Source: a virus. From it: a DNA stretch of 48,293 nt. Shown in pieces: positions 2,075-41,164 of this stretch. The translations under genes and the position numbers were made by a program. Every line of letters starts with the position of its first letter. The stretch's first letter is position 1. The notes under the pieces were generated by a model. The model was not told the DNA's origin and ran no database searches. It saw only the letters and a program-made list of their open reading frames with translations. Location of the stretch: positions 1 through 48,293 of the IMG/VR virus record IMGVR_UViG_3300009431_000520; one strand, 5' to 3'.

Positions 2075-2076
2075 AA

Positions 2077-7505: not shown

Positions 7506-7507
7506 GA

Positions 7508-8736: not shown

Positions 8737-8745
8737 AAAACCTCC

Positions 8746-9021: not shown

Positions 9022-9030
9022 AAATCCTCC

Positions 9031-10383
9031 TTATGGTTCTAATCTTGCCAAAAGTTTATAAGCTGTTCCGTTTATTGTCACATCTACATATCCTGTATCC
9101 ACAACTGTTCCTGCTGTATAGTCATTCAAATCCCAATCATCATCAGAGGCTGTTCTGATAGTGCTTGCTGTATCCAAATCATTGTCAAAAGTATACTTAT
9201 CAAAATTGGTAAAATGCACTTCGTCATTAGCTTGTACGTTTTCACTGTTGAATATCCAGTCTGCTCCATCAAAATAATCAGAAACATCGTCTCCACCACC
9301 TCTGTAATACTTAAAATTATCAAGATTGTTATATAAATCTGTTGTTTTTAATTCAAGATAAGAACCAAAAAATATAGAACCAACTGTTCCAGAAGTATCT
9401 CCTGAACCCCCATTACCTGCGTTAAATTGAACATCCCCACCATCTCCACCTGTTGTTGCTCCACTTCCTCCAGCTCTTATCGCAATACCCCCAGAACCTG
9501 CGTTAAACGTTAAATTTGTTCCTTTTCCTGCTACAGCGTCACCCACTCCGCCAGAGTATGCTGCACCCCCAGCCCCTCCTGTAAAAGAGTAAACTCCTGC
9601 ATCCCCGCCTGTTGCTAATCCTGTTCCTGTAGTAAGACCATATCCACCCTCTCCACCAGTAAACTTAAAATCTCCGCCATCCCCACCAGTGGCAGCATCA
9701 TCAGCTCCTATTTTAGCTCCACCAGCACCAGATTCCATATCTACACCTGCACCGATTAACCCAGCTCCTCCATCAATTCCCAGCATCTTTAACCTGTCAT
9801 CTCCTGTGGTTGTAAACTCTAAACTTATATCTTTACCAGTTCCAAAAGATAATTTGGTATCGTCAGCCAATCCCAATACACCAGAACCATCCTCTTTGGG
9901 ATTTACCCACATATCTGTCCCATCATAATAGATAGAAGCGTCTTGGTCTTCCCCGAACAGTAATTTCTGACTATCTGCATTTATCCTTACCTCGCCTGCA
10001 GCATACGCCTGAAAGGGTGCATTCGCTTGAGTAGAATTTCCTAACCACAAGTCGTCGCCTGCTCCTGTGGTGTAGATATCACCATCTGAATAAATAGATG
10101 TTCCAGCATATATTGTGCCAGAGGTTGTAATACTTCCACCAACTTCTAATGTATCGGAAAAAAGAAATTTATCTCCAGCATTATTCCATGATAGCGATTC
10201 ACCAGTAGGGCTTCCATCTTCAGCGAAATAAATGAAGGTATCTGTTCCGTCTGTCCCTAAATAGAGATTCTTACTTATAGCTAAGTCCTCTGTTATAGGG
10301 TCATTGGAGGCATCAAGTTTGAGATAACGAGCATCTCCTGCAGTTTCGCTTATACCACCGGGACTACTTAATCTAACACTCAT
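9031..10383 (-). CDS. Glycine-rich fibre-like virion protein (450 aa)
   Basis: The N-terminus (GGISETAGDARYLKLDASNDPI) is a fibre attachment motif seen in many tail or head fibres. Residues 1-200 contain beta repeats (IYYDGTDMWVN type). Residues 205-345 are extraordinarily glycine-rich, with GG at short regular spacing (GGDGGDFKFTGGEGG, GGAGGAAYSGG), the pattern expected for stacked polyglycine or beta-solenoid turns. The C-terminal 100 residues are a distinct beta domain that could be the tip. Probably an appendage used in adsorption. Confidence 0.7.
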   Translation of the reverse strand: MSVRLSSPGGISETAGDARYLKLDASNDPITEDLAISKNLYLGTDGTDTFIYFAEDGSPTGESLSWNNAGDKFLFSDTLEVGGSITTSGTIYAGTSIYSDGDIYTTGAGDDLWLGNSTQANAPFQAYAAGEVRINADSQKLLFGEDQDASIYYDGTDMWVNPKEDGSGVLGLADDTKLSFGTGKDISLEFTTTGDDRLKMLGIDGGAGLIGAGVDMESGAGGAKIGADDAATGGDGGDFKFTGGEGGYGLTTGTGLATGGDAGVYSFTGGAGGAAYSGGVGDAVAGKGTNLTFNAGSGGIAIRAGGSGATTGGDGGDVQFNAGNGGSGDTSGTVGSIFFGSYLELKTTDLYNNLDNFKYYRGGGDDVSDYFDGADWIFNSENVQANDEVHFTNFDKYTFDNDLDTASTIRTASDDDWDLNDYTAGTVVDTGYVDVTINGTAYKLLARLEP

Positions 10384-10664
10384 AAATTACCTGTTCTCTC
10401 CCAATAGGCAACATCTGCTGTCCCATTAGCTGAAGTTGTCATACCCCATATATCGCCCTTATACATTCTTCCACCGCTTGAATCTTCAGTTAAATTACCA
10501 TCTGCCTGTAAAACAATAGCAGTAGCAGAAGTAATAGTGCTATCAGGACCTAAATAAACAATCCCTGACGTTGATGCATTAGTCAATATCAGGGACTGCC
10601 TTCGAGTATTCTCGCCTAAAATCTTAGTTGCTGATGTTCCTACATTTACAGTTCCAAATCCCAC
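10380..10664 (-). CDS. Small virion protein, beta-rich (94 aa)
   Basis: A 94-residue beta-sandwich-like protein: TKILGENTRRQSLILTNAS, YLGPDS and GDIWGMTTSANGTADVAYWE. These blocks are typical of small fibre-base or decoration proteins just upstream of fibre genes in phages. The stop overlaps the fibre start by 4 nt. No enzymatic features. Confidence 0.65.
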   Translation of the reverse strand: MGFGTVNVGTSATKILGENTRRQSLILTNASTSGIVYLGPDSTITSATAIVLQADGNLTEDSSGGRMYKGDIWGMTTSANGTADVAYWERTGNL

Positions 10665-10667
10665 GTT

Positions 10668-11111
10668 TTAGTCCTTTGGTTGAGGACCAAAACCTCCGTA
10701 TCTATCCTGTCCGCCACCAGTGGTATCTTTTCCACCACCAAGAACTTTTATGGCTTCGACTCTTTTAGGTAGTTCATCCTTATGAACCTTGCTTGCTTTT
10801 GCAGCAAATTCTTCCTCTACCTTCTTCTCGTCATAGCCAAAGGCTTTAAGGTAATCATCTACGGTATTAAAACCTTGATTCCTCATAGCCTGTAAGAATT
10901 CTGGATTTCTACGGAAGTTCTCACCCAAATGGTCCACGTTAGCCTTGAAGAGCTCAAATAGGGCTGCACGATCTCCGCCCTCATATATATAGTCATCTCC
11001 CGGCTGTATCTCTTTTTCGTCTACTACTTTCACTTTACCAGACAAATTCTTTAATGCTATCCTCTCTTTAGCTGGATACCATGCACCTTCTTTTGATACA
11101 AATTTCGGCAT
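10668..11111 (-). CDS. Virion-region protein with MPxFxSKxGAWxP start (147 aa)
   Basis: The N-terminus MPKFVSKEGAWYPAKE recurs in the next gene upstream (MPEFISKGGAWLPKPK), so the two share a domain of about 15 residues. The rest has a beta part (LSGKVKVVDEKEIQPGDDY) and a helical part (RAALFELFKANVDHLGENFR), ending in a Gly/Gln tail. Proteins of this kind occur in head-gene clusters and may be head completion or decoration proteins; that is a positional inference. Confidence 0.65.
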   Translation of the reverse strand: MPKFVSKEGAWYPAKERIALKNLSGKVKVVDEKEIQPGDDYIYEGGDRAALFELFKANVDHLGENFRRNPEFLQAMRNQGFNTVDDYLKAFGYDEKKVEEEFAAKASKVHKDELPKRVEAIKVLGGGKDTTGGGQDRYGGFGPQPKD

Positions 11112-11125
11112 TTCTTTCTCCTTTA

Positions 11126-11290
11126 CTATCTGCCCTTTTTAGGTCTCCCCTTCTTAGGCTTGGATTTGGTAACAGGTTTATCTTTTACTTTCTCTGGTTC
11201 TTTCACTACCACAGGTTCTTTAGGCTCAGGTTTAACCTCAACCTTTGGCTTTGGAAGCCACGCACCACCCTTGCTTATGAATTCAGGCAT
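11126..11290 (-). CDS. Short basic paralog of the neighbouring gene (54 aa)
   Basis: ATG at 11290 behind an AGGAGG site, stop TAG at 11128-11126. The first 15 residues are a near copy of the start of the 147-residue gene downstream. The remainder is Pro, Lys, Glu and Val and ends KKGRPKKGR, which resembles an AT-hook. A partial gene duplication that kept only the N-terminal tag is the simplest explanation. Possibly DNA-binding in the capsid; untested. Confidence 0.65.
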   Translation of the reverse strand: MPEFISKGGAWLPKPKVEVKPEPKEPVVVKEPEKVKDKPVTKSKPKKGRPKKGR

Positions 11291-16646: not shown

Positions 16647-16883
16647 TTAGCCTGCAAAATGTTGAGAGTAATCTAAAATACCACTCAACTTCTGCATTAC
16701 GTCAGATTTAGGACTTTCTCCTATTTCTTCTTCTAAGATACTTAATAATGTCATATATGGAAAATTAGCTTCGTAATTATTGAACTTAGTATGTATTCTT
16801 GATGTAAAGTCATCTATTCTTTCAATGGCTTCTATATTGTCTATAGATATACTAAATCCTTGTTTAATTTCAAGAAATCTAAT
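16647..16883 (-). CDS. Hidden gene with apparent AUU start (78 aa)
   Basis: The minus strand from 16883 to 16647 is an uninterrupted 78-codon frame reading (M)RFLEIKQGFSISIDNIEAI and on to LSGILDYSQHFAG, then TAA. No ATG, GTG or TTG occurs at its front; the codon a suitable distance behind a GAGAGGTG ribosome site is ATT, and it overlaps the TAG of the split HNH gene as ATTAG. The composition looks like a real phage protein. AUU is a rare but known start. Alternatively the HNH gene's arrival destroyed the original start. Confidence 0.55.
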   Translation of the reverse strand: MRFLEIKQGFSISIDNIEAIERIDDFTSRIHTKFNNYEANFPYMTLLSILEEEIGESPKSDVMQKLSGILDYSQHFAG

Positions 16884-18567
16884 TTTTACTCACCTCTCTA
16901 TACTCTTTTAATGTCTTATTATGTTTTCTACTATTACAACTACGATGAGCAACAGCCAAATTCTCATAATTATTGCTCCCACCACGACTTAGTGGCATTT
17001 TGTGTTCAAGGCTATCTTTCCCAAATTCTATAGACTTATCACAAAGATAACAAGTTAATGTTCCATATTTCTTAATGTTATCTTCATAAAGAAGTTGAAT
17101 AGTTTGCTTTTTAAGTATTCCTCCACCTTTTTTTAAAGATTGCCTTACTTGATTTGCCATCTTCTTTTTGTTCATTTCAACAGTTCTGACGAGACGAAAA
17201 CCGTAATCGTTGAAATGACGGCCCGGATCAGTGCGGTGACGACAAGCAGAGCGAAAGTACTCGTCACCATAGTAGTGGTCCCAGGAACCGCCGCGCAACA
17301 CACGGTAATCCGCCTTGCTAGTGTTAAGTGGATCTTTATATTTTTCACCTTCTTTATAAAAGCTGTCACTATACCAGTCGATACACCATTCCCAGACATT
17401 ACCGATCATACCGTACAATCCCCATTGGTTTGGTTTCTTTTGCTTTACTGGCTGGGCCGACTTATTGTCCTGTGATCCTTTATTTTGAATAGCAAAATCA
17501 TCTATTTTATCTATATCTTTATCCCAGTAATAAGTTGTATCCGTCCCTGCTCTAGCTGCGTACTCCCATTCGGCTTCGGTCGGGAGACGATATAATCTTG
17601 CTTTTCTGTTTTTAAAAGCATATTGTAAATAGGCCTCCGCATCCAGATCTTTAATCGCCTCTTTAACATCACTGGTAATATCTTCCGATAAAAGAGATAG
17701 CTGTTTGCAGTAATCTACCGCTTCATACCAGTTGATCCTATCTGCCGGCGCATTTTCATCTTCAGCGTAAAAGCCATCCTCATACGGATGTTTTTTTATT
17801 ATTGCCAACAGCTGTTTCTGCGTTATCGCTGTTTCAGCGAACTGGACCGCACCGACTGTTACCTGATGCGACGGATTATCATCTTTATCCTCTACACCGC
17901 CCATCGTATAAGTGCCTCCCGGCAGCTGGATCATCGTAAGGCCGGCGATAGGCTCGGTGTATGATTCAAAATCGGCTACTACCGTTGGAATATTTACCCC
18001 ATCTACTTCTCTTAATGACTTTTCCGTTGCGGCGATCAACGCATCCGCGCTATCCAGCCGTTTTTGATAGGCTTTAAGTGTTTTCGCTAACTCTTTTTTG
18101 GGCAAGCCAAGTGTTTTCTTCTTCTCCATAGAAACAGCTAGCGCATCCCGCTTTGCTTTGATTGCCTCAAGCGTAGACTGTTTTTCGCCAACCGGCATTG
18201 TTTCCAGCCTAGTGCTCAATGAATTATATTTAGAATTATATTTATATGCCATCTTCTTTTTAGGACTTCTTCTATACCAATCTTTCTGATATTTATTCCT
18301 GTATACTTTATCAGAAAGTATTCTTTTTCTTCTTCCATCAATCCAATTATTGGCATTTTCACCAACGGCAAATCTATCATGACACTTTCTACATCTTTTA
18401 GCTTTACGAGTTGAAGTTGGATTACCACAATCTAAGCATTTATTTTTTCCTTTAATTCTTCGAATACCAGAACATTTCGGACTACAACAAAATTGCTTCT
18501 TTGCTGATGGAACAGTTCTAAACTCAATTCCACAAATCTCACAATTTTTAAAGTAGCCTGTTTTCAT
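16879..18567 (-). CDS. HNH endonuclease split by an FGE-sulfatase/C-lectin domain with a DGR-type variable region (562 aa)
   Basis: Residues 1-102 form the zinc-finger N-terminus of an HNH nuclease (CEIC, CCSPKC, CLDC, CRKC). Residues 499-562 are its catalytic end (CYLCDKSIEFGKDSLEHKMP, then LSRGGSNNYENL and CNSRKHN). Between them sits a 364-residue foreign block: a coiled coil (about 118-190) and a formylglycine-generating-enzyme-like C-type lectin domain (LTMIQLPGGTYTMGG, RLPTEAEWEYAARAG, GNVWEWCIDWY, VLRGGSW, GFRLVR). The block is bounded by a 15-bp direct repeat coding KKKMA; removing one repeat unit restores an in-frame 198-residue HNH protein. Several stretches of the block are visibly richer in GC than the flanks. 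The lectin fold is the usual DGR target fold. Catalysis by the FGE part is unlikely to be its role here. Whether the fusion is expressed and stable is unknown. Confidence 0.85.
   Translation of the reverse strand: MKTGYFKNCEICGIEFRTVPSAKKQFCCSPKCSGIRRIKGKNKCLDCGNPTSTRKAKRCRKCHDRFAVGENANNWIDGRRKRILSDKVYRNKYQKDWYRRSPKKKMAYKYNSKYNSLSTRLETMPVGEKQSTLEAIKAKRDALAVSMEKKKTLGLPKKELAKTLKAYQKRLDSADALIAATEKSLREVDGVNIPTVVADFESYTEPIAGLTMIQLPGGTYTMGGVEDKDDNPSHQVTVGAVQFAETAITQKQLLAIIKKHPYEDGFYAEDENAPADRINWYEAVDYCKQLSLLSEDITSDVKEAIKDLDAEAYLQYAFKNRKARLYRLPTEAEWEYAARAGTDTTYYWDKDIDKIDDFAIQNKGSQDNKSAQPVKQKKPNQWGLYGMIGNVWEWCIDWYSDSFYKEGEKYKDPLNTSKADYRVLRGGSWDHYYGDEYFRSACRHRTDPGRHFNDYGFRLVRTVEMNKKKMANQVRQSLKKGGGILKKQTIQLLYEDNIKKYGTLTCYLCDKSIEFGKDSLEHKMPLSRGGSNNYENLAVAHRSCNSRKHNKTLKEYREVSKN
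17155..17169. repeat. 15-bp direct repeat, downstream copy at the insert boundary
   Basis: TGCCATCTTCTTTTT occurs here and at 18247-18261. The spacing is exactly 1,092 bp, or 364 codons. The repeats coincide with the two edges of the foreign domain inside the HNH gene, as expected for a target duplication or for recombination between short matching sequences. Confidence 0.9.
17203..17280 (-). other. DGR-type variable region (VR), 26 codons
   Basis: Residues 430-455 of the split HNH protein lie between RGGSW and GFRLVR, the exact place of the variable segment in FGE-type targets of diversity-generating retroelements. Twenty-four of the 26 codons end in C or T and none ends in A, the footprint left when AAY template codons are mutated at their adenines to NNY. 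Residues are D, H, Y, G, C, R, T and N at the lectin-surface positions. No template repeat or reverse transcriptase is found in the window, so any diversification would need one elsewhere, or the VR is a fossil. Confidence 0.75.
18247..18261. repeat. 15-bp direct repeat, upstream copy at the insert boundary
   Basis: Second copy of TGCCATCTTCTTTTT (see 17155-17169). On the coding strand it reads AAAAAGAAGATGGCA, giving KKKMA at residues 103-107 and again at 467-471. Confidence 0.9.
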
Positions 18568-24610: not shown

Positions 24611-24638
24611 TTGACATACGCTATATATATGATATACT
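24611..24638 (+). promoter_or_regulatory. Strong early sigma70-like promoter
   Basis: TTGACA, 16-nt spacer, TATACT, with TGA before the -10. The region is nearly the same as at 27085-27112, including the ATATGATATACTT block. It should drive the early genes from about 24646. Confidence 0.85.
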
Positions 24639-24659
24639 TGTATCAGGTTGATAAACAGT

Positions 24660-24792
24660 TCATTGATATATAAGCGGCACAAGCAAAAGCAAAGCGAATA
24701 CGGATACTGCCGAGAGGCGACCAAGTAAGTTTCGCCGACAGCGTAAAGTGCCTACCTTGAGCTTGTGAACGGGGAGAGAAACGGAGGAAAAA
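24660..24792 (+). ncRNA. Structured 5' leader of the early operon
   Basis: No gene. The RNA can pair CACAAGC (24678-24684) with GCTTGTG (24761-24767), or instead GGCAC (24676-24680) with GTGCC (24748-24752); the two share bases and exclude each other. Inside lie CGG/CCG (24701-24712) and GGCGA/TCGCC (24716-24736). A GGAGG site and the first start codon follow. The family is unknown to me. Confidence 0.5.
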
Positions 24793-25086
24793 ATGAAAAA
24801 CATCACAATTATAGGACGTCGTTGGTTCGATAAAATCAATGGCAATACCTACTTTTCAGCTGAAGGCTTAATTGACGGAGAGCCTAAAGTAAAAATAGAC
24901 TTCTCATACGGATATGGTAATCAATATGAATGGGAAACTTTCGGGGAGTTAGAAAAGCAAGGGTATATAACAGATGTTGAGCATTACAAAAATGGCGGGC
25001 ATGAAGCACCATTTCGTTATTGTCAACGTAAAGACATAACGTATTATGCAACAGTATCAGACGTAAACAGAAAAAAAGACTTATAG
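24793..25086 (+). CDS. First early protein (97 aa), function unknown
   Basis: A 97-residue soluble protein with aromatic-rich strands (GRRWFDKINGNTYFSAEG, DFSYGYGNQYEWETFGELE). A GGAGG site precedes the ATG. It is the first product of the strong promoter at 24611, so it is probably abundant early in infection. No family recognised; host takeover is only a guess from position. Confidence 0.65.
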   Translation: MKNITIIGRRWFDKINGNTYFSAEGLIDGEPKVKIDFSYGYGNQYEWETFGELEKQGYITDVEHYKNGGHEAPFRYCQRKDITYYATVSDVNRKKDL

Positions 25087-25091: not shown

Positions 25092-25168
25092 CCCTCCCTA
25101 TCCGCTTATATACTATCCTACGGTAAAAGTCCGTAGCTGATGAAGGCATGAAGCCGAAATAGGGAAGG
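25092..25168 (+). ncRNA. Divergent hammerhead-like element (candidate)
   Basis: After TATC, the hairpin CTACGG/CCGTAG (25118-25123 with 25131-25136) leads into CTGATGA (25137-25143), a GGC/GCC stem, GAAA (25156-25159) and TAGGGAAGG. This is the order of a stem-III-open hammerhead with the cut after C25117. Two departures weaken it: one extra A after CTGATGA, and only 4 bp (CTAT/ATAG) next to the core unless the upstream CCCTCCCTAT forms stem III around a 16-nt bulge. That stem would also hide the ribosome site of the next gene. Confidence 0.4.
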
Positions 25169-25176
25169 AGATGAAT

Positions 25177-25362
25177 ATGCCAAAACGTGTATCAAAGCTA
25201 TTACTATTATGGAAGATGATTATTCTAATATCTTTAATTCTGCACACTTTTCAGGGATATAGAATGGTCATGAAATGGGTAAGTAAACAACCGGCTGTTA
25301 AAAGGTATGCTATACATTTAATGTTAGACGGCTGTAAATACAGATGGGGAGGTGTAAGATGA
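25177..25362 (+). CDS. Small single-pass membrane protein (61 aa)
   Basis: The GGGAAGGAG site ends at 25170, so the ATG at 25177 (MPKRVSKLLLLWKM) is better placed than the in-frame one at 25171. One hydrophobic helix (LLLLWKMIILISLILH) follows a basic N-terminus; the tail is basic. It overlaps the next gene as ATGA. Function unknown. Confidence 0.6.
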   Translation: MPKRVSKLLLLWKMIILISLILHTFQGYRMVMKWVSKQPAVKRYAIHLMLDGCKYRWGGVR

Positions 25363-25511
25363 ACAAAGTATATATAGTATGCGAAGCTTGTGAAGATACA
25401 TATTATGAAGGCTCACCAAAAGCTGTATTTGACACTAAAGAAAAAGCCGAAATTATGATTAAGAATAATCCACAAAAAGAGTACTATATAGAAGAATTTG
25501 AACTAAAATAA
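25359..25511 (+). CDS. Small acidic protein with CxxC (50 aa)
   Basis: ATG overlapping the upstream stop (ATGA), TAA at 25509-25511. The product contains VCEACEDTYYEGSPKAVF and a tail of EEFELK. The pattern, with a Tyr-rich loop and a following helix, is common in small phage proteins read as C-x2-C domains. No function known. Confidence 0.6.
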   Translation: MNKVYIVCEACEDTYYEGSPKAVFDTKEKAEIMIKNNPQKEYYIEEFELK

Positions 25512-25527
25512 AAGGAGGTGATACTAA

Positions 25528-25704
25528 ATGAAAAGTTTATTTGAGATACAAGCCCACAAAAACGAATTGCTTCAACAAGGACTAAAAGCACAAGAGGAAG
25601 GAAATTTTATCAAGCGAGATATAATAGCAAAGGAAATTTTCAAAGCTGAAAAAGCTATTGCAACATGGGGAACAAAACAGAACGCAACCTATCGTATTAT
25701 GTAA
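25528..25704 (+). CDS. Small helical protein (58 aa)
   Basis: A strong AAGGAGGTGAT site lies before the ATG at 25528; stop TAA at 25702-25704. Helical and Lys/Gln-rich (HKNELLQQGLKAQEEGNF). Its stop codon overlaps the first stem of the hammerhead ribozyme, so ribosomes finishing this gene would meet the ribozyme fold. Confidence 0.65.
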   Translation: MKSLFEIQAHKNELLQQGLKAQEEGNFIKRDIIAKEIFKAEKAIATWGTKQNATYRIM

Positions 25705-25757
25705 CCCTCTGATGAGCCGTTGAAACACGGCGAAACGCCCTCCAGGGCGTAAGGGTT
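25703..25757 (+). ncRNA. Type I hammerhead ribozyme
   Basis: All core elements are present and correctly joined: stem I AACCCT (25703-25708) with AGGGTT (25752-25757); CTGATGA (25709-25715); stem II GCCGT/ACGGC (25716-25731, loop TGAAAC); GAAA (25732-25735); stem III CGCCC/GGGCG (25736-25749, loop TCCA); then U25750 and A25751, a permitted NUH site. Cleavage is expected between 25751 and 25752, in the early transcript, leaving the next gene with a 5'-OH leader of 29 nt that holds its ribosome site. Confidence 0.9.
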
Positions 25758-25780
25758 CAGCTGAAAAGGAGGTGATTAAG

Positions 25781-25885
25781 ATGAAGTGCCCAAATTGTAG
25801 TCACAGGTATATAAAGTTTCATGTGAAGGGAAAGAGGATATTTGGGTTGTGTAAGGTATGTTTATATTGTTGGATAGCGAGATAA
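25781..25885 (+). CDS. Zinc-ribbon microprotein (34 aa)
   Basis: AAGGAGGTGATTAAG precedes the ATG. Two Cys pairs, MKCPNC and CKVC (with another Cys nearby), in 34 residues with basic residues between. A minimal zinc ribbon of this sort is likely a nucleic acid or RNA polymerase binder. It is the first gene after the ribozyme cut. Confidence 0.65.
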   Translation: MKCPNCSHRYIKFHVKGKRIFGLCKVCLYCWIAR

Positions 25886-32066: not shown

Positions 32067-32119
32067 TGATGAAAGACATAATCTACAAAGGCATGGGTAA
32101 ATGCAACCCGATCTCTTAA
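32066..32119 (+). CDS. Possible 17-residue coupling peptide
   Basis: An AAGGAG site and ATGATG start, coupled to the gene before, give MMKDIIYKGMGKCNPIS, ending inside the start of the methyltransferase gene, which lacks its own ribosome site. It may be translated only to deliver ribosomes to that gene. Confidence 0.35.
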   Translation: MMKDIIYKGMGKCNPIS

Positions 32120-32940
32120 AACTTAAACCGCTTAAAAATCTTCAGCAAGTATGGAAGGAGTATCTTACCTTCTTTAATCAGTATGATGAGTGGAAAGAGT
32201 ATCCCTGTCCTATTTGCAAAGCCTTTGAAAGCACAAAAGAGCTGTTTACCATTGATAGGTTTTCATACAGAGAATGCTTTAATTGTGGCACAATTTACAA
32301 TTCTCCTCAGTTTGACATACCTTTGGACTATTCTATATACCGAGATAAATTGGTAAAACCGGCAAGAAGAATGAGACAAAAACTTGTCGAAGTAAAATAT
32401 AGTCAGATAACCCATTATAGCAAGAACAAAGGCACTCTGTTAGATGTGGGTTGTGGGTTAGGTATATTAGTAGAGGTATTTATTAAGCATGGCTGGTCTA
32501 CAGTAGGAATAGACCCTTGCTTAAATACCACATTTGAAGAATATAAAACAAGAAGAAAATTTGATGTTATTACCTTCTTCGGAGTGCTTGAACACGTCAA
32601 TAACCCATTAGAGCTATTACTAAAGGCTAAATCCCTGCTCCGTAAAGGGGGTATTATAGTCTACGAAGCTCCTTCTGCTGACTGCTTCCTGATGGAATAC
32701 CTTTTGAAATACCCCTTCTCTCCTTACCGGTTCATAGAACATGGTAGGCACTTGTCTTTCTTTTCAAGGAAAACTATACACTATCTATGCGATAAAACAA
32801 AGATGAAAATAGTGGACTTAAAGACAGTAGGATTTGACTTACAAACCATTACTCTTACCAGCGAAAAAGAAATAATACAAATGCAGGATATATTAAATAA
32901 AACTTTACAGGCAGATCACTACAGGGTGTATGTTAGATAA
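32101..32940 (+). CDS. SAM methyltransferase with N-terminal zinc ribbon (279 aa)
   Basis: N-terminal CPIC and CFNC pairs form a zinc ribbon; the class I SAM domain follows with LLDVGCGLGILVEVF (motif I), GIDP (motif II) and FDVITFFGVLEHVNNP (motif IV). This is the plan of sugar or polysaccharide C-/O-methyltransferases of the Methyltransf_23 type. First gene of the envelope cassette, overlapping the PseB-like gene by 11 nt. Confidence 0.8.
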   Translation: MQPDLLKLKPLKNLQQVWKEYLTFFNQYDEWKEYPCPICKAFESTKELFTIDRFSYRECFNCGTIYNSPQFDIPLDYSIYRDKLVKPARRMRQKLVEVKYSQITHYSKNKGTLLDVGCGLGILVEVFIKHGWSTVGIDPCLNTTFEEYKTRRKFDVITFFGVLEHVNNPLELLLKAKSLLRKGGIIVYEAPSADCFLMEYLLKYPFSPYRFIEHGRHLSFFSRKTIHYLCDKTKMKIVDLKTVGFDLQTITLTSEKEIIQMQDILNKTLQADHYRVYVR

Positions 32941-33841
32941 GACCATTCTTTTGACAGGCGGCACAGGAACTTTCGGAACAGCTTTTACTCAATCCATCTT
33001 ACAATACAATCCAAAGAAATTAATAATCTTCAGCCGGGATGAATATAAGCAATCCCTAATGGTTAAAGACTTCCCTCAAGATAATATTCGCTTCTTTATC
33101 GGTGATGTAAGGGATAGGGAACGCCTTGGCAGAGCCTTTGAGGGGGTAGACTATGTAGTCCATGCTGCTGCCCTTAAACAAGTTCCTGCACTTGAATACA
33201 ATCCCACAGAAGCAGTTAAGACTAATATAGACGGAGCAAATAACATAATAAGTGCTGCGATAGAAAAGGGAGTTAAGAAGGTAATAGCTCTCTCGTCGGA
33301 TAAAGCAGTTAATCCTATAAACTTATATGGGGCTACGAAATTAGTGGCGGAGAAGCTTTTCCTTGCAGCTAATGCTTATGGAGGTAGGAAAGTAGAGTTC
33401 TCTGTTATCAGATACGGAAATGTAATAGGTTCAAGAGGCAGTGTGGTATCTTACTTTTTAGACTTGGCAAGAAAGCAAATAAAGGAATTCCCCATTACTC
33501 ACCCTGACACTACACGCTTCTGGCTATCCAAATGGCAAGCTGTGTATTTAGTGATAGAGATGCTGAGTATGTCTTGTAAGGGGGAGATATGGATACCGGA
33601 GATACCTTCCATGAAAATCATAGATGTAGCTAAAGCAATAGACCCTGACTGTGAGTTTAAGATAATAGGCTTGAGGAAAGGGGAGAAACTGCACGAAACT
33701 CTTATCTCCAAAGCAGAGGGAGATGAATTTACATCCAATAAAAATAAATGGTGGCTGACTAAAAAAGAATTCTGGAGGCTAACAAATGAAAACTGTTGCA
33801 ATAATTCAAGCTCGCTTAACGTCTACACGATTTCCTCGTAA
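32930..33841 (+). CDS. pseB: UDP-GlcNAc 4,6-dehydratase, PseB-like (303 aa)
   Basis: NAD-binding TGGTGTFG at 9-16 and the hallmark ALSSDKAVNPINLYGATK (catalytic region) place it in the inverting 4,6-dehydratase family. It would convert UDP-GlcNAc to the 4-keto-6-deoxy sugar that begins pseudaminic acid and related sugars. The last 20 residues are read over the next gene and may not be needed. No PseC or PseI homolog follows, so the host or other genes must complete a sugar. Confidence 0.88.
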   Translation: MLDKTILLTGGTGTFGTAFTQSILQYNPKKLIIFSRDEYKQSLMVKDFPQDNIRFFIGDVRDRERLGRAFEGVDYVVHAAALKQVPALEYNPTEAVKTNIDGANNIISAAIEKGVKKVIALSSDKAVNPINLYGATKLVAEKLFLAANAYGGRKVEFSVIRYGNVIGSRGSVVSYFLDLARKQIKEFPITHPDTTRFWLSKWQAVYLVIEMLSMSCKGEIWIPEIPSMKIIDVAKAIDPDCEFKIIGLRKGEKLHETLISKAEGDEFTSNKNKWWLTKKEFWRLTNENCCNNSSSLNVYTISS

Positions 33842-34337
33842 GATATTGGCAAAGATAGGGGATAAGACAATGCTACAGTGTGTGATAGATGCAGCAAGAA
33901 TGGTATCTGACATTGATAAAGTTGTTGTTGCTATCCCTGCAGGACAGAAAATACCATTTAAAGGAGCAGAAAAATTTGAAGGGTCTGAATTAAATGTTTT
34001 ATGTAGATATTATTATTGTGCTGAAAAATATGCTGCAAATAGAATTATAAGAATTACTGCTGATTGTCCAGCTTTAAAACCCATCACAATAATAACAGCA
34101 ATAGGTTTATATGAAGCATATAATTTTCCCTATTTAATTTATTCGCCTTTAAATGGATTAGATGTAGAAGTTTTTAGCTTTGAAATGCTGAGAGAAGCAT
34201 GGAAAAATTCCTTTGATTTATATGATTTAGAACACGTTACACCATATATGAAAAGAAAAACTAAACTTTCAGTGGACACAAAAGAAGATTTGGAGGTGGT
34301 GAAAGCATGGATAGCTGGAAAAGGACTTGTGAGATAA
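33786..34337 (+). CDS. Cytidylyltransferase, SpsF-like (183 aa)
   Basis: AIIQARLTSTRFPRKILAKI is the nucleotide-binding signature of acylneuraminate cytidylyltransferase-like proteins (SpsF/KdsB relatives). ITADCPALKP holds the next motif. At 183 residues the domain is somewhat short. It would activate a sugar acid or similar compound with CMP. Overlaps the aminotransferase gene by 31 nt. Confidence 0.8.
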   Translation: MKTVAIIQARLTSTRFPRKILAKIGDKTMLQCVIDAARMVSDIDKVVVAIPAGQKIPFKGAEKFEGSELNVLCRYYYCAEKYAANRIIRITADCPALKPITIITAIGLYEAYNFPYLIYSPLNGLDVEVFSFEMLREAWKNSFDLYDLEHVTPYMKRKTKLSVDTKEDLEVVKAWIAGKGLVR

Positions 34338-35488
34338 TCCCTTCCGGAGTGCAGACTATGTCAAAAAGACCCTCTCAGTATGCCGAGAACTGCCCGAAGA
34401 AGATAGAATATGCAAGTGGCTGTCGTGTCTATAGTGGAAAAGATAAGGAATACATAGACTATACCTGTGCTTTAGGGGCGATAAGTTTGGGCTATGGGTT
34501 TCCTCCTGTTGATTACGCAGTAAGTAGCCAGATACAGAAAGGTATACTCTATGGACTATCCTCCCCGAAAGAAGCTGTATTGGCTCAAAAGCTCATTGAT
34601 TTAATCCCCTGTGCTGAAATGGTGAGGTTTCTTAAAACAGGCAGCGAGGCTTGCTCAGCAGCAGTTAAAATAGCTAAGTCATATACTGGAAGAAACGGTA
34701 TAGCCTCATATGGCTATCATGGCTGGCACGAGTGGGAAAACAGGCACGAATTTGAATATAATGACCTAAATCTGCTTACGGAGATACTTAAATATAAAAA
34801 GGTGGCAGCAGTTATTATAGAACCTTATGTCTACGATCCACCAGCAAATGGTTACCTGATGGATGTTATAAACTTAGCCCACAAATATGGTGCGTTGGTA
34901 ATATTTGATGAGATAGTAACCGGTTTTAGGACTCTTGGATGGTCAGCTCAGAAATTCTTTAAAGTAATCCCTGACTTAACTACTCTTGGGAAGGGCATGG
35001 GTAATGGCTACCCTATCTCAGCAGTAGTGGGTAAGAAGAAGTATATGAAGGAATTAGAGAAGAAATGTTTTGTATCCTCTACATTTGGCGGAGATTTAAT
35101 AGGTATTAGTGCCGCTATAGCCACTATTGACTATATGAAGAAGCACGACGTAATAAACCATATATGGGCTATGGGAACAGATATTAGAGAGTGGTTTAAT
35201 ATAACTACAAGAGAATTCATGTTGCCAGTGTGCTGTAAAGGCTATGCTTGCCGGACTACCTTTGAGTTTCCCCTTGAGGAAGCAAAGCAACTATTTTGGA
35301 GAGAGTGCTTAAAAAGAAGGGTGTTATTTGGTAAAGCCCAGTTTATTTCCTATTCCCATAAAGTAGAGGAAATTGATACCACAATTAAAGTAATACAGGA
35401 AGCCTTAATGAAAGTAAAGGAGGTTTATGGTCACTGCGATAGTCCCGGTAAAAACAAAGTCAGAAAGACTGCCAGAAAAAAATCTTAG
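34307..35488 (+). CDS. Class III aminotransferase (GSA-aminomutase-like) (393 aa)
   Basis: LKTGSEACSAAVKIAKSYTGRNGIA, VIFDEIVTGFR and TTLGKGMGNGYPISAVVG, with the PLP lysine in GKGMGNGYP, are clear class III motifs. In surface-sugar clusters such proteins often accompany SpsF-like cytidylyltransferases, as here. It may aminate a keto sugar or another carbonyl compound. A first start at 34307 overlaps the previous gene; IPSGVQTMSK follows. Confidence 0.85.
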   Translation: MDSWKRTCEIIPSGVQTMSKRPSQYAENCPKKIEYASGCRVYSGKDKEYIDYTCALGAISLGYGFPPVDYAVSSQIQKGILYGLSSPKEAVLAQKLIDLIPCAEMVRFLKTGSEACSAAVKIAKSYTGRNGIASYGYHGWHEWENRHEFEYNDLNLLTEILKYKKVAAVIIEPYVYDPPANGYLMDVINLAHKYGALVIFDEIVTGFRTLGWSAQKFFKVIPDLTTLGKGMGNGYPISAVVGKKKYMKELEKKCFVSSTFGGDLIGISAAIATIDYMKKHDVINHIWAMGTDIREWFNITTREFMLPVCCKGYACRTTFEFPLEEAKQLFWRECLKRRVLFGKAQFISYSHKVEEIDTTIKVIQEALMKVKEVYGHCDSPGKNKVRKTARKKS

Positions 35489-36071
35489 ATACTTTATAGA
35501 CTGCCCTCTCTATGAGCATAAGTTACGCCAGATACAAAAAGCTCCATTTGACCAGATCGTAGTATCCTCCGAAAGCAAGGAAGTGCTGAAAGTTGCCGAG
35601 AAATATAATTGTATCCCCCACCTTAGAGACCCTAAATACTCCACCCCGGATATACCTATGAGTGAGGTATATAAGTATCTGGCTTCAGTAGTAGGAACAG
35701 GAGATATAGCTTGGGTAAATGTCAATAATCCTTTAGTAGAGGAAGCAGAATATAAACAAGCTATTGCAGCATGGAAATTTATTAAGAATGATAATGATTG
35801 CCTTCTATCGGTAGATAGCCTGCAAAGATATATCTACTGGCAGGGTAAGCCCTTAAACTGGATACCGGAAGCACACCCTAAGAGCCAAGATTTGGGAGGG
35901 TTGTGGGCTTTGAACTTTGCAATAAATATCCGCCCAAAAGAAGATGTTGTTAAAACAGGGTGTTTCGTAGGGGCAAATCCACATTTCCTTGAAATAGATA
36001 AGTATAAAGCTACTAAAGTAGACTATGCAGAAGATTTAGAAATTTGCAGATTGTTATGGAAAAGAAATTAG
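35427..36071 (+). CDS. CMP-sugar / acylneuraminate cytidylyltransferase-like (214 aa)
   Basis: IVPVKTKSERLPEKNLRYFIDCPLYEHKL is the N-terminal CMP-binding motif; later VNVNNPLVEEAEY and KSQDLGGLWALNF match NeuA/PseF relatives. It starts 61 nt inside the aminotransferase gene. A second CMP-transferase beside the first suggests two CMP-activated products, one of which could be a phosphonate rather than a sugar. Confidence 0.8.
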   Translation: MVTAIVPVKTKSERLPEKNLRYFIDCPLYEHKLRQIQKAPFDQIVVSSESKEVLKVAEKYNCIPHLRDPKYSTPDIPMSEVYKYLASVVGTGDIAWVNVNNPLVEEAEYKQAIAAWKFIKNDNDCLLSVDSLQRYIYWQGKPLNWIPEAHPKSQDLGGLWALNFAINIRPKEDVVKTGCFVGANPHFLEIDKYKATKVDYAEDLEICRLLWKRN

Positions 36072-36100
36072 TAAGCGAAGTAAGAAAAGGAGGAAGATTT

Positions 36101-36367
36101 ATGAGAAAGGTATTAGTAGTAGTCATTATGGCTACAATGCTATTTACCGTTCCTGCGTTTGCTTTGTTTGATGATAATTCGACAAATCAACAGCAACAGC
36201 AAGGAATAGCAGATAGTGGTAATTCAAACAACTCGAATAGTAATTTAGCAACAGGTGGTGCTGGTGGCAATGCCTGTCAAGGGCAAGGACAACAGCAAGG
36301 ACAGCAACAAGGACAAGGGCATTTTCGAAGAAAGTTACCAGTCATACAATCAAAGCAGGAAAAATGA
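36101..36367 (+). CDS. Secreted Gln/Asn/Gly-rich protein (88 aa)
   Basis: A strong AAAGGAGG site precedes the ATG. Residues 1-21 are a signal peptide (RKVLVVVIMATMLFTVPAFA, cleavage after AFA). The mature part has a Gln run, an NSNNSNSN stretch and a QGQQQGQQQGQGH repeat. Exported low-complexity proteins are unusual in phages. It may coat or stick to the cell surface. Confidence 0.65.
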   Translation: MRKVLVVVIMATMLFTVPAFALFDDNSTNQQQQQGIADSGNSNNSNSNLATGGAGGNACQGQGQQQGQQQGQGHFRRKLPVIQSKQEK

Positions 36368-36373
36368 AAAGCT

Positions 36374-36544
36374 ATGAGTAAGCTGCCTATAATGGTTAAA
36401 TTATTGTTATGGCTCACAAGAAAGCATAAATGGCATAAAGATTGGTTTGGTTGTTGGATATGTGAAATAAGATTAAAAAATAACCCAGATAAACCGAGGA
36501 TTAATTATGAACAAAATGAGGGAAGTAGTAATCAAAATATCTAA
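36374..36544 (+). CDS. Small basic protein (56 aa)
   Basis: Trp- and Lys-rich N-terminal half (LLLWLTRKHKWHKDWFGC) and a polar tail. It overlaps the next gene by 38 nt and has only a weak ribosome site. Function unknown. Confidence 0.45.
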   Translation: MSKLPIMVKLLLWLTRKHKWHKDWFGCWICEIRLKNNPDKPRINYEQNEGSSNQNI

Positions 36545-36773
36545 CATAGCTGATTTATATGCACCTCAACGCTATCATACAGTAGACCAAGCCCTCCACG
36601 CCCTATGGCGAGCGGTGGAGGAAAGTTTGCCTGAGGAAAAGAAAAGATACTTCGTTGTTGAAGCACAAGATGGTGGACATTGGGTAGAATTAAACACCAT
36701 AGAATATGGTCATAATGAAGCTCTCAAAGATGTCCGAGAGAGGCCGAAGAGGCTGTTTGTGGGGGAGAAATGA
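36507..36773 (+). CDS. Conserved-type small protein (88 aa)
   Basis: A soluble alpha/beta protein (YHTVDQALHALWRAVEESLP). No family recognised. It couples to the gene after it by a 4-nt overlap. Confidence 0.55.
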   Translation: MNKMREVVIKISNIADLYAPQRYHTVDQALHALWRAVEESLPEEKKRYFVVEAQDGGHWVELNTIEYGHNEALKDVRERPKRLFVGEK

Positions 36774-36904
36774 GGATACCTTGTAGATGGCGATTACATA
36801 GACCAAAAGAGATGGTTAGGTATCTTCTTAATGCTTTTGGGTTGTTAGCCAACGACGGATGTAAAGAGTTCAACACGGATAATTGGTTTGGATTAAAGAA
36901 ATAA
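36770..36904 (+). CDS. Small basic protein (44 aa)
   Basis: GGGGGAG site and ATGA overlap; the product is a short basic protein with two Cys residues. Family unknown. Confidence 0.5.
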   Translation: MRIPCRWRLHRPKEMVRYLLNAFGLLANDGCKEFNTDNWFGLKK

Positions 36905-36934
36905 AGTTACTTTGCTTCGCTTACTAATTTAATT

Positions 36935-37804
36935 ATGAATATACTCGTAACCGGTGGTTCAGGCTTTTTAGGTAGTCATATAGTAGAGGCATTGTGTAAG
37001 TGTGGACAAAAGTTGGTTTTGTTCGACAAAAATCCCTCCGCCGTCGGAGAGGGGTTTTACGAAATGGTGGTTGGAGATATTTTAGACCGAAAAAAGCTTT
37101 TCAGAGCCTTGAGGGGAATTGATGTTGTTTTCCACCTTGCAGCCCTTGCTGACATAAATAAAACATGGGACAACCCAAGAGAAACTATGAAGGTCAATGT
37201 GTTAGGCACTACCAATGTTTTAGAGGCAGCAAGATTAAATGGTGTGAAGAGATTTATATTTGCCTCAACTTTATATTGTGATAGCAGGTCAGGTTCTTTG
37301 TATCGTGTCAGCAAGCAAGCCGGGGAGTTGTTAGTCAAAGCCTACCATGAACGCTGTGGTATGGAGTATATTATTTTAAGGTTTGGAACTCTCTACGGCA
37401 CACGAGCTGGAGAAAATAATAGCATCAGAAATTTGCTTAAACAGGCTTTGTCAGGTAAAATAGAGTATTATGGAACAGGTAATGAAGTTAGAGAATATAT
37501 ACACGCCAAAGATGCTGCCCAAATCTGCACTACATTACTCGGAGATAAATATGTCGGAGAAACCCTTGTCCTAACGGGGTATCATAGGTTCAAGCTGACA
37601 GAAATGTTGGATATGATAAATGAAATCCTCGGCAACAAAGTAAAGATAGAATACCACCCCAAAGATAATCGTGCCCACTACGAGCAAGTCCCTTATTCTT
37701 ATACACCACACAATTTAAAACGAGTAGTCCCCGAAACCTATCAGGATATGGGGGGAAGTTTAGTAGAAATAATGGAGGAGATAAATGAAAAAAGTATATT
37801 TTAG
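36935..37804 (+). CDS. NAD-dependent sugar epimerase/dehydratase (289 aa)
   Basis: ILVTGGSGFLGSHI is the NAD-binding GxxGxxG, HLAALADINKTWDNP the substrate loop, and YRVSK the catalytic YxxxK of extended SDRs. Resembles UDP-glucose/GlcNAc 4-epimerases and 4,6-dehydratases. Substrate cannot be fixed. No obvious ribosome site lies in front of the ATG at 36935. Confidence 0.85.
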   Translation: MNILVTGGSGFLGSHIVEALCKCGQKLVLFDKNPSAVGEGFYEMVVGDILDRKKLFRALRGIDVVFHLAALADINKTWDNPRETMKVNVLGTTNVLEAARLNGVKRFIFASTLYCDSRSGSLYRVSKQAGELLVKAYHERCGMEYIILRFGTLYGTRAGENNSIRNLLKQALSGKIEYYGTGNEVREYIHAKDAAQICTTLLGDKYVGETLVLTGYHRFKLTEMLDMINEILGNKVKIEYHPKDNRAHYEQVPYSYTPHNLKRVVPETYQDMGGSLVEIMEEINEKSIF

Positions 37805-37973
37805 TAATTTTAGTAAAAAAGAAATATTTGAAGATAATAAACCTATAAAATTAAGGAAAGACGAGGTGTTTGTAACATTCATGAAATTCAAAAGACGGTT
37901 ATTTGTTATGACAACTCAACGGATATATGAAATAGTAGAAAACAAGGAGAAAAAGTATGGCTTACGGAAATAG
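37785..37973 (+). CDS. Small basic protein (62 aa)
   Basis: Lys/Phe-rich strands (VFVTFMKFKRRLFVMTTQRI) overlapping the epimerase and the reductase genes. A GGAGG-like site and intact frame support it. Function unknown. Confidence 0.55.
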   Translation: MKKVYFSNFSKKEIFEDNKPIKLRKDEVFVTFMKFKRRLFVMTTQRIYEIVENKEKKYGLRK

Positions 37974-38814
37974 AATTTTAGTTACGGGTGGTCAAGGTAT
38001 GCTCGGCTCTGCAATAGAAGAAGTATTTGCTAAAGACTTTACTTGTATCTTTACCGACATCAATGAATTTGATGTAAGAAAGTATCGTAAATTTATTAAG
38101 GATATACCAAGTCCTAACTACATACTGCATTTAGCAGCAGAAACTAACCTTGAGTTCTGTGAAAGCTATCCAATGTATGCTTACCATACAAATACAATAG
38201 GCACTTTTAATATGGTAGAGATAGCTAAACAATTAGATATTCCTATCATCTATATGTCTACAGCAGGGGTATTTGGTAATACTAAAGCTGAATATTTTGA
38301 TGAGAATTCTACTCCTGACCCCATAAATACTTATGGAAGAAGCAAATACTACGGAGAGATAGCTGTCCAAGCCTACCCTAAGCACTGGATATTCCGTATC
38401 TCTTGGGCGTTTGGTGGCGGTGCAAGAGATAGGAAGTTTGTAATGAAAATCTGTAAGCAGTTAAGTGCAGGCAAACAATTCATTGAAGCCATAGATAGTA
38501 AATCTGGTAGCCCTTCCTATACCAGAGACGTTGCAGGAATTATCTATGGCTTCATTAAAGAAGAAAAGCCCTATGGGCTGTATCATATACCAACAGGTAG
38601 CGGAACAAGATATGAGGTTGCTTGTGAGATAGTAAAATTATTGAATTCTATTACGCCAATATATAAAGCAAAAGAAGAACAGTTTCTTGAATATATAGCC
38701 ACAAGACCTAAGTGTGAGGTGCTTAAAAGTGTTAAAGGTGTGGAAACGAGGGACTGGAAAGAGGCACTAAAAGAATATATAGATGAACTTGTTGCTAATA
38801 AATCTATCTCTTAG
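37957..38814 (+). CDS. rmlD: dTDP-4-dehydrorhamnose reductase-like protein (285 aa)
   Basis: ILVTGGQGMLGSAI, LHLAAETNLEFCES, STAGVFGNTKAEYFDEN, YGRSKYYGE and FRISWAFGGG are RmlD motifs. It would reduce a 4-keto-6-deoxy sugar nucleotide. With the 4,6-dehydratase-like and epimerase-like genes it could complete a deoxysugar. Its end overlaps the radical SAM gene by 32 nt. Confidence 0.85.
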   Translation: MAYGNRILVTGGQGMLGSAIEEVFAKDFTCIFTDINEFDVRKYRKFIKDIPSPNYILHLAAETNLEFCESYPMYAYHTNTIGTFNMVEIAKQLDIPIIYMSTAGVFGNTKAEYFDENSTPDPINTYGRSKYYGEIAVQAYPKHWIFRISWAFGGGARDRKFVMKICKQLSAGKQFIEAIDSKSGSPSYTRDVAGIIYGFIKEEKPYGLYHIPTGSGTRYEVACEIVKLLNSITPIYKAKEEQFLEYIATRPKCEVLKSVKGVETRDWKEALKEYIDELVANKSIS

Positions 38815-40111
38815 ACCTGAGAGCTTCAAAGCTATCTTTCCTATTGGTTTGGGATACATAGCCACAGCTATCAAGCAAGCAGGGTTTAAGTTTGACCTGT
38901 TGGATATGAATGTCCATAAGTTTAAAGCCCAAAATAAATTAAGGGAAACGCTGAAGAAGAAATATGATGTGATTGCCTTTGGTTGTATTGTTACCGGCTA
39001 CAAGATGGTCAAAGAAATCAGTAAGATTATCAGAGAGGAAAATAAAGATGCCATTATTATCTGCGGTAACTCTGTGGCTTCTTCTATCCCAAGGATACTC
39101 TTAGAGAAAACAGAGGTGGACATAGCTGTAGTAGGTGAGGGAGATGTAGTCATAGTAGACATACTTAGAAACAAACTCTTCGCAAGAAAATATTCCTACG
39201 CAATAAAAGAACCTATTAAAAACCTTGATGACTTACCCATGCTGGACTGGGATTTGTTTGATATGAGACAGTATATAGACAGCAACAAGACCTCAATACC
39301 CGAACCCCACCCGGTAGGGTATGCTGCCATGAATGCCATGCCTATCAACAGTGCCAGAGGGTGTCTATTTAAATGCACCTTCTGCTATCAAGTGTTCTGT
39401 AATAACGTCTATAGATACAGGTCTACTAAGTCAATAGGCAAGGAAGTAGACCACCTAAAGAAGAAGTATGGTATTAATTATGTAACCTTTTATGACGACC
39501 TGACTTTATTCTCTCGTCGTCGTGCTAATGACTTCGCTGATATGATGACAGGAAAAGATGTCTACTGGACAGCTTGTTGCAGGGCTGATCTGTTTACAGA
39601 AGAGGACAAGAGATTACTCAAGCGATTAAAGAAAGCTAACTGCATCTCTTTAGGCTACTCATTAGAGAGTGCCAACGCTGACATACTTAAATCCATGCGG
39701 AAGAAGATTTCTCTGGAAGGATTTAGCAGGCAGAAAAGGTTGTTAGATGAGGCAGGCATAGCTACACTGACCTCTCTCGTCATAGGTTACCCCCAAGAAA
39801 CGGAGGAGACTTTAAATGAAACATTTAATTTCCTGTATGATAATAACATTTATCCTTCTGCTGGGTATCTGCTACCTCAGCCTGCTACACCTATGTATGA
39901 TTACGCAAAGCAAAATGGCTACATACCCGATGAGGAGAAATATCTCTTGGCTATGGGAGACAGGCAAGACCTCCGATTAAATATGACCTCAATGAGTGAT
40001 GAAAAGATGGAAGGTATAGTCCATAAACACCTGAGGCGTATAAGAGATAAGTTAAAATTAGATTTAGACGATGAACATTTGTTGAAAACTAAAGTAGTTC
40101 GTGGGAGGTAG
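38783..40111 (+). CDS. B12-binding-type radical SAM enzyme (442 aa)
   Basis: Residues 1-130 form a Rossmann-like cobalamin-binding domain (PIGLGYIATAIKQAGFKFDL, CGNSVASSIPRILLEKTEVD). The radical SAM cluster motif is CLFKCTFC, followed by YVTFYDDLTLF and YSLESANADILKSMRK. This is the class B methyltransferase/BchE plan. It stands directly before the PEP mutase-like gene; in fosfomycin and phosphinothricin pathways such an enzyme methylates a phosphonate intermediate. A lipid or sugar substrate is the alternative. Confidence 0.85.
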   Translation: MNLLLINLSLRPESFKAIFPIGLGYIATAIKQAGFKFDLLDMNVHKFKAQNKLRETLKKKYDVIAFGCIVTGYKMVKEISKIIREENKDAIIICGNSVASSIPRILLEKTEVDIAVVGEGDVVIVDILRNKLFARKYSYAIKEPIKNLDDLPMLDWDLFDMRQYIDSNKTSIPEPHPVGYAAMNAMPINSARGCLFKCTFCYQVFCNNVYRYRSTKSIGKEVDHLKKKYGINYVTFYDDLTLFSRRRANDFADMMTGKDVYWTACCRADLFTEEDKRLLKRLKKANCISLGYSLESANADILKSMRKKISLEGFSRQKRLLDEAGIATLTSLVIGYPQETEETLNETFNFLYDNNIYPSAGYLLPQPATPMYDYAKQNGYIPDEEKYLLAMGDRQDLRLNMTSMSDEKMEGIVHKHLRRIRDKLKLDLDDEHLLKTKVVRGR

Positions 40112-40112
40112 T

Positions 40113-40847
40113 ATGATACTTGTAAGTGCGGGCGATAGTGTCGGTGCTCGTTTAGTAAAGGAGGCAGGTTTCGATGGGATATGGGTTAGTGGTTTTGAAG
40201 CTTCTGCTCGGCTTGGGTTGCCTGATAATGGGAGCATTACTCTTTTACAAATGTTGTCTATCACAGCACCGATTGTTGGTGCTACAGACCTTCCTGTCTA
40301 CGTGGATGTTGATGTTGGGTATAGGGATTTTGCTACTACTGTTAGAAAGTTTGAAGAAATAGGTGCAGCAGGTGTGTGTATAGAAGATGTAGAACCTGCC
40401 TATAAACAGAATTCTTTATGGGGTGATAAAGTTCCGTTGATGGATATGAAAAAGTTTGCTGCCCAGCTAATGGTAAATAGAAAGATAAAAATAATAGCAA
40501 GAACAGAAGCATTAGTAAGAGGATACGGAGAGGAAGAAACCAGAAAAAGACTTGGCTGTTACCACAAGGCAGGTGCTGATATATTATTTCCTCACTCAAG
40601 AACAGTTCCTCTGTGGATGAAAGATGATAGATATTATGCCATAGCCCCTACCAAATTCCCTTACTATACCAATACCAGATTAGAATATTTGGGATATGAA
40701 ATGGTTATCTGGGCAAACCAGACGGAGAGAACAAAGATAAAAGCAGTAAGAGAAATGCTTGCTTCTCTTAAAAAACATGACCGTATGTTAGAAGCAGAGA
40801 AAGACCTTTGTGTTACTTTAGATGATATGAAAGGACTGACAGAGTGA
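40113..40847 (+). CDS. PEP mutase-like protein of the isocitrate lyase superfamily (244 aa)
   Basis: ATG at 40113 behind GGGAGG. WVSGFEASARLGLPDN and YVDVDVGYRD carry the Asp residues that bind magnesium. The PEP mutase loop, usually EDKxxxxxNS, here reads EDVEPAYKQNS: Lys is replaced by Val and there is one extra residue, though the Lys and Asn of KxNS remain. The two following genes are a phosphonopyruvate decarboxylase pair, so C-P bond formation from PEP is the best guess; a related lyase or hydrolase is possible. Confidence 0.75.
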   Translation: MILVSAGDSVGARLVKEAGFDGIWVSGFEASARLGLPDNGSITLLQMLSITAPIVGATDLPVYVDVDVGYRDFATTVRKFEEIGAAGVCIEDVEPAYKQNSLWGDKVPLMDMKKFAAQLMVNRKIKIIARTEALVRGYGEEETRKRLGCYHKAGADILFPHSRTVPLWMKDDRYYAIAPTKFPYYTNTRLEYLGYEMVIWANQTERTKIKAVREMLASLKKHDRMLEAEKDLCVTLDDMKGLTE

Positions 40848-41164
40848 AAGTCGGTATCCCCTACACTGGCTGTAAACACCAGAGTGAAGTTCCAGTAACA
40901 AGGGAAGATGAGGCTATTGCCTTTGCTGTGGGAGTGGCACTCGGTGGCGGTGAGTGCCAAGTTTATATGGACAACAGTGGGTTAGGGCAGTGCGTAAACA
41001 TAATATCCACCCTACTACGCCCCTACCAGATCACAATACCTTTGGAGGTGTCTGTAAGGCATGAACCTGAACACCATAAATACATGGGGAAGATTACAAA
41101 ACCTTTAATGGAGTTATTAGGATATGCAGAAAGCAATCCAAGAAATAATGTCAAAAGTAAATAA
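40844..41164 (+). CDS. Phosphonopyruvate decarboxylase, alpha/N-terminal subunit (106 aa)
   Basis: GTG start coupled to the upstream TGA. REDEAIAFAVGVALGGGECQVYMDNSGLGQCVN is the N-terminal pyrimidine-binding domain of TPP decarboxylases, with the conserved Glu. It is only 106 residues, shorter than the usual half. Sulfopyruvate decarboxylases are also split in two, so that reaction is the alternative, but PEP mutase next door favours phosphonopyruvate. Confidence 0.75.
   Translation: MKVGIPYTGCKHQSEVPVTREDEAIAFAVGVALGGGECQVYMDNSGLGQCVNIISTLLRPYQITIPLEVSVRHEPEHHKYMGKITKPLMELLGYAESNPRNNVKSK

Follow-up and report, generated by a model that had tools for sequence, protein, structure and literature searches.

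A type I hammerhead beginning in a stop codon and a nearby type III hammerhead in the early region of a phage genome: a proposed segmentation of early mRNA

Genome layout and the early region

The window, by which we mean the whole stretch of DNA analysed, is a virus record with a length of 48,293 bases. Head and packaging genes occupy its minus strand up to about 24.45 kb, and from 24.6 kb the plus strand encodes, among other products, a Cas4-like nuclease and a replication initiator, along with small genes. Among the matches of the large terminase are those of Mu-like phages. Within the structural region, a minus-strand protein (16879-18567) has a C-terminal HNH endonuclease domain. Further along the plus strand, genes for sugars and surface polymers form a block (32101-43115), an unusual cargo for a 48-kb phage, which comprises a methyltransferase, several epimerase/dehydratases, a class III aminotransferase, a B12-binding radical SAM protein and a glycosyltransferase. 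A type II-like site on the minus strand near 32145, opposite the methyltransferase gene, was judged to be a chance occurrence.

The early transcript likely starts at the promoter-like site listed in Table 1; the consensus scan returned 10 such sites in the region, where 7.7 would be expected. The leader (24645-24792) folds no better than its shuffles. The 97-aa gene, of the phrog_6246 family, has relatives in 149 phage records. Three small genes follow: AAGGAG (25165-25170) precedes the first, which had no family match (ORF 25171-25362), and the stop codon of this gene overlaps the start of the second (ATGA). The DUF7336 protein encoded by the second gene had no match in phage records, and the 58-aa product of the third is of unassigned function, with no family match. 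The next gene downstream, which follows AGGAGGT at 25767-25773, encodes a cysteine-rich protein for which no Pfam match was found.

Table 1. Features of the early region (all coordinates are positions in the window).
Feature	Position	Strand	Basis
Promoter-like site, TTGACA-16-TATACT	24611..24638	+	Consensus scan only, 11/12 matches
97-aa gene, phrog_6246, upstream of the type III ribozyme	24793..25086	+	Family match
Type III hammerhead (paired part 25113-25162; predicted cut 25117/25118)	25107..25168	+	R2 match; covarying relatives
634-nt RNA that would be freed if both ribozymes cut	25118..25751	+	Two predicted cuts
61-aa gene, the first of three that the ribozymes enclose	25177..25362	+	ORF and translation
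50-aa gene, DUF7336, second of three	25359..25511	+	Family match
58-aa gene, third of three; end inside type I stem I	25528..25704	+	ORF
TAA stop that ends the 58-aa gene; its last two bases are the first two of stem I	25702..25704	+	Sequence
Type I hammerhead (predicted cut 25751/25752)	25703..25757	+	Sequence; R1 match; minimum-energy fold
Gene for a cysteine-rich 34-aa protein, past the type I cut	25781..25885	+	ORF

Two hammerheads and their relatives in other phages

By sequence, structure and family, the element that overlaps the end of the 58-aa gene is a genuine type I hammerhead, and self-cleavage is predicted for it. Stem I (AACCCT 25703-25708 with AGGGTT 25752-25757) is open and has six perfect base pairs. 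Stems II (GCCGT/ACGGC, loop TGAAAC) and III (CGCCC/GGGCG) have 5 bp each and are closed by loops, and stem III is extended by A25735-U25750 (A15.1-U16.1). The core (CTGATGA 25709-25715 and GAAA 25732-25735) is unaltered, and the cleavage triplet, GUA 25749-25751, fits NUH with A25751 as H17. The site is flanked by the stop codon on one side and by the ribosome-binding site of the following gene on the other, and its predicted cut is 29 nt ahead of the ATG at 25781. The original prediction had described a complete type I hammerhead with perfect stems of 6, 5 and 5 bp, an intact core and a UA cleavage site, beginning in a stop codon, cutting 29 nt before the next start and belonging to the early transcript. 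The sequence features among these particulars are all borne out at the coordinates given, and the early genes are on the same strand and the same side of the genome as the element.

When the 55-mer is folded alone, its minimum-energy structure is the hammerhead itself (just 2 of 200 shuffles fold as well), and the same fold is predicted to persist in a 201-nt context. A covariance model, R1, which we built from four other phages with the window excluded, finds the element as its sole match in the window (25700-25760, 51.6 bits, E = 2.1 × 10−14). Loop II agrees with the phage consensus, and stems I and II may engage in a tertiary contact between loop and flank.

The covariance search that had been proposed as a check thus succeeded with R1 and fell short of the gathering scores of Rfam. 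At its cut-offs, Rfam reports no hammerhead in the window; with relaxed thresholds, it gives only a partial Hammerhead_3 match, which at 27.2 bits stays below the cut-off of 48.5. Because Rfam also reports none in five other phage loci with at least 11 evident hammerheads, its negative result for the window is uninformative. At their cut-offs, the present hammerhead models of Rfam overlook canonical members from phages, and hammerhead counts that depend on these models are therefore probably low.

A second ribozyme, which the original prediction had not noticed, lies 541 nt upstream and was first found with a loose descriptor. Its core consists of CTGATGA (25137-25143), followed by one extra base (A25144), and GAAA (25156-25159). 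Its possible stems are a stem I (CTACGG/CCGTAG) of 6 bp with the loop TAAAAGT, a closed stem II (GGC/GCC) of 3 bp and an open stem III (CTAT/ATAG) of 4 bp. A pattern drawn from stem II occurred in 21 viral loci and one drawn from loop I in 16. When the type III core was written out as a fuller expression, it matched 14 of 14 TAAAAGT loci, a set that leaves out L299 (element same as that in L298) and L307 (rest of the core absent). The covariance model R2, built from seven other phages of the TAAAAGT loci with the window excluded, scores the window's element at 56.3 bits (E = 4.1 × 10−16), with the next match at 14.1 bits. All seven of these phages have an extra base after CUGAUGA; among them, 97.1% of cells are paired and the covariation score is 0.508, versus 0.165 for shuffles. 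Locus L281, one of the 21 with the stem II pattern, shares loop I and the extra A with the window, with stems I and III changed in step. In L304 (5042-5131, plus strand), CUGAUGA and stem II of a type III of the same family are separated by a 28-nt insert of two small hairpins; the element still scores 52.9 bits with R2. The plus-strand hammerhead of Chrysanthemum chlorotic mottle viroid, a plant viroid, likewise has an extra A between A9 and stem II.

Family match thus identifies 25113-25162 as a type III hammerhead; its cleavage is predicted, although the fold predicted in context disfavours the hammerhead structure. Pairing of 25092-25102 with 25157-25170 is favoured in context (−24.6 versus −11.2 kcal/mol). 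Among nine members of the family, the window's element has the shortest stem III (4 bp) and the weakest predicted fold, in which stems II and III hardly pair at all. Low predicted pairing of stem III is also seen in L294, L301 and L303, so a weak fold is not in itself proof of decay. Given the 4-bp stem III and the competing predicted fold, cleavage at the upstream site may be slow or under regulation, or may have been lost. Note that 25092-25102 can pair with the stem III strand and with part of the next gene's ribosome-binding site; according to these fold predictions, the pairing could possibly act as a switch.

Type I hammerheads built like that of the window are common in other phages. 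Pattern scans of genomes and viral contigs supplied samples of further loci. Among the matches listed, a full hammerhead by descriptor was present in 107 of 122 viral loci and in 21 of 118 genome loci; the genome set was excluded from further analysis. R1 matched 38 of 40 viral records searched whole, all chosen for carrying the pattern. An alignment of 66 type I sequences, that of the window among them, has standard pairs in 98.0% of its pair cells and a covariation score of 0.818 (0.166 for shuffles), with the caveat that the alignment is biased toward the structure of the model. The core and pairings of the window's type I element follow this covarying family from other phages.

Hammerheads on one strand are sometimes grouped: seven type I elements stand in a row in L168 (minus strand, 544-4550) and six in L194 (minus strand, 6226-11139). 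A type III followed by a type I on the same strand occurs in the window, in L305 (about 2.2 kb), in L179 (with another type III) and in L306. The type I element of L306 (2218-2282, plus strand), a distant match downstream of an intact type III, has otherwise good stems and a core broken by a change of G8 to A; it is possibly a decayed copy. The reverse order is found in L159 and in the records of L210 and L231. We therefore dropped a strict rule of type III first and type I second; the pairing in the window is one arrangement among several.

Proposed segmentation of the early mRNA

We consider it probable that the type I ribozyme cuts early plus-strand RNA and, together with the type III, divides the transcript and frees a 634-nt message for three small genes of 61, 50 (DUF7336) and 58 aa. 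The original prediction, which is supported in part, had envisaged one cut that separates segments of early mRNA, and perhaps a coupling of ribozyme folding to translation termination; given the second hammerhead, excision of a three-gene RNA becomes possible. The type I cut would fall directly past the stop codon of the 58-aa gene, and the type III cut would set the upstream boundary. Since the type III body would remain 3' of its own cut and the type I body 5' of its own, the freed RNA would keep both ribozymes. It would thus begin with a hairpin bearing a 5'-OH and end, tens of bases past the last stop codon, in a stem-loop with a 2',3'-cyclic phosphate, the product ends known for hammerheads (PMC6155905). 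Such ends probably protect the message, presumably from exonucleases, and uncouple its level from that of its neighbours.

Segmentation is the best explanation for the observed sequence, structure, family membership and recurrent placement of the ribozymes, and would entail cleavage, one shared transcript and an effect on stability. Three observations weigh against it: the 4-bp stem III and competing in-context fold of the type III; the lack of a fixed order, with type I before type III in three other records; and the absence of both ribozymes from structural relatives, although the early regions of these relatives are unrelated.

Clusters of hammerheads around phage genes have been known since 2011, when Perreault et al. 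described clustered hammerheads flanking prophage genes and proposed that they process long phage transcripts (PMC3088659). In vitro cutting was found there for tandem hammerheads in prophages of three bacteria, and one of these sets was also cut in E. coli (PMC3088659). As in the window, those clusters have type I and type III elements close together on one strand, flanking a phage gene or short blocks of genes. The window differs from the clusters described there in its genes, in a type I that starts inside the upstream stop codon and in a type III with an extra base, placed upstream. The HHphage element of haloviruses HF1 and HF2 likewise lies in an early region a few bases before a start codon; it represents a variant form in which bases are inserted near C3 (PMC3088659), whereas the core of the window's type I is unaltered. 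Bacterial hammerheads and twisters are enriched near genes of Mu-like phages and near other ribozymes (PMC10085705), which recalls the Mu-like-matching terminase and the two neighbouring ribozymes seen here. Unlike the Mu-like-associated ribozymes, however, those of the window sit in the early region, not in the terminase and head region.

Placement beside stop codons and alternative readings

The overlap of the type I hammerhead with a stop codon is no quirk of this locus and recurs far above chance. Genes were accepted at 40 codons or more, or at 25 where they ran off the locus. Among the matches listed, 34 of 80 unique type I elements from viral loci have an upstream stop within −3 to +2 of the 5-bp stem I, compared with 2.6% of random positions (n = 16,000), and 51 of the 80 have one within −5 to +8. 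With similar neighbourhoods joined, the narrower interval holds for 27 of 60 independent ones among the matches listed, versus 2.7% at random. In 70 of the 80 listed elements there is a start codon beyond the cut, at a median of 33 nt. Type III elements mostly precede a start codon by a short distance: for 13 members of the TAAAAGT family, the start lies at 1 to 41 nt in seven and at 98 to 135 nt in two, and was not found within 400 nt in four. Phage tRNA arrays form a second recurring context, with type I hammerheads in loci L005, L006, L007, L174, L196 and L252; some of the 29 type I elements without a near stop lie in loci with such arrays (for example L005, L174 and L252).

Anchoring to stop codons looks like a general, testable rule for phage type I hammerheads, and is the new part of our findings. 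We did not find this placement described in the literature that we searched, which covered few subscription papers, and the words 'stop codon' occur nowhere in the main text of PMC3088659. What role hammerheads play in bacteria and phages is described as an open question in PMC6155905. A stop inside the 5' edge of the ribozyme and a start about 33 nt past the cut constitute a recurrent, quantifiable placement, so that this role can be tested by setting translation of the upstream gene against cutting.

The same placement suggests another reading, in which the ribozyme forms 3' ends coupled to translation: with a stop codon in its 5' strand, ribosomes would keep it unfolded until termination, and cutting after their release would trim the message just past the stop. 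We regard this as possible and rather unlikely. In addition to the 27 of 60 neighbourhoods above, this reading draws on an excess over uniform sliding of elements within their gaps (24 of 44 near a stop, against 15.1 expected, sd 2.7, among the matches listed), and on the 8 of 80 listed type I elements in which the stop is itself the UGA of the CUGAUGA core (offset +8). However, gene packing by itself brings elements near stops, and the sliding null is crude. Furthermore, an A precedes the 5-bp stem I in 63 of the 80 listed elements and also stands beside stem I in 25 of the 29 without a near gene end (TAA in 8 of the 29), so the stem I flank, and with it the UAA signal, is partly structural. 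The ribozyme seems to prefer an A-rich edge that is able to double as a stop codon. It is unlikely, in our estimation, that phage type I hammerheads are generally translation-gated 3'-end formers, with the type III partner here supplying the 5' end, possibly under the control of 25092-25102. If they were, ribosome traffic would hold the ribozyme open until the last ribosome had gone, when folding and cutting would give the message a stem-looped 3' end right past its stop codon; 25092-25102 could then be a second control, competing with the type III fold and covering part of the ribosome-binding site. Under segmentation, the reading that we prefer, the ribozyme pair could trim a three-gene message out of the early transcript.

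The ribozymes might instead be selfish or neutral passengers that move from phage to phage or originate again and again, and that are tolerated in the gaps between genes, with no benefit from cutting. Such an account fits the early regions surrounding the ribozymes, which are unrelated from one phage to another. Relatives identified by their terminases share the structural half of the window only, and neither R1 nor R2 matched in 17 loci from them (206 kb, with six whole records in pieces). The early regions of these structural relatives are unrelated to that of the window, so the absence of ribozymes there is not a clean test. The early region found no homologs in a search of phage and plasmid DNA or in two scans of viral contigs with its proteins, and when nine of those proteins were compared with 305 loci by tblastn, two weak protein matches were all that resulted. 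No hammerhead was seen near relatives of the 97-aa gene in the two surroundings examined (L309 and L310). A motif this small could also arise convergently. Idle passengers would nevertheless be hard to reconcile with covarying stems and fixed cores, with the strong bias in placement relative to stop and start codons and with the multi-copy groups on one strand, and we think this account quite improbable.

Ligation of the 634-nt product into a circular RNA, by a ribozyme or an RtcB-type ligase, is very improbable: the chemistry of hammerhead ends would allow it (PMC6155905) and the product would retain both ribozyme bodies, but we see no helix that would hold the ends together after both cuts, and the 2011 study of tandem prophage hammerheads sought spliced or circular products and detected none (PMC3088659). 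Finally, a chance resemblance in a stop-to-start gap, in whose favour stands the silence of Rfam at its cut-offs, is extremely unlikely, since Rfam also misses other clear phage hammerheads, the independent model R1 gives E = 2 × 10−14, and hammerhead-like sites with at least 16 stem pairs arose in 1 of 1000 simulated windows (0 of 200 for a hammerhead-like site under another setting), whereas the type I element has 17.
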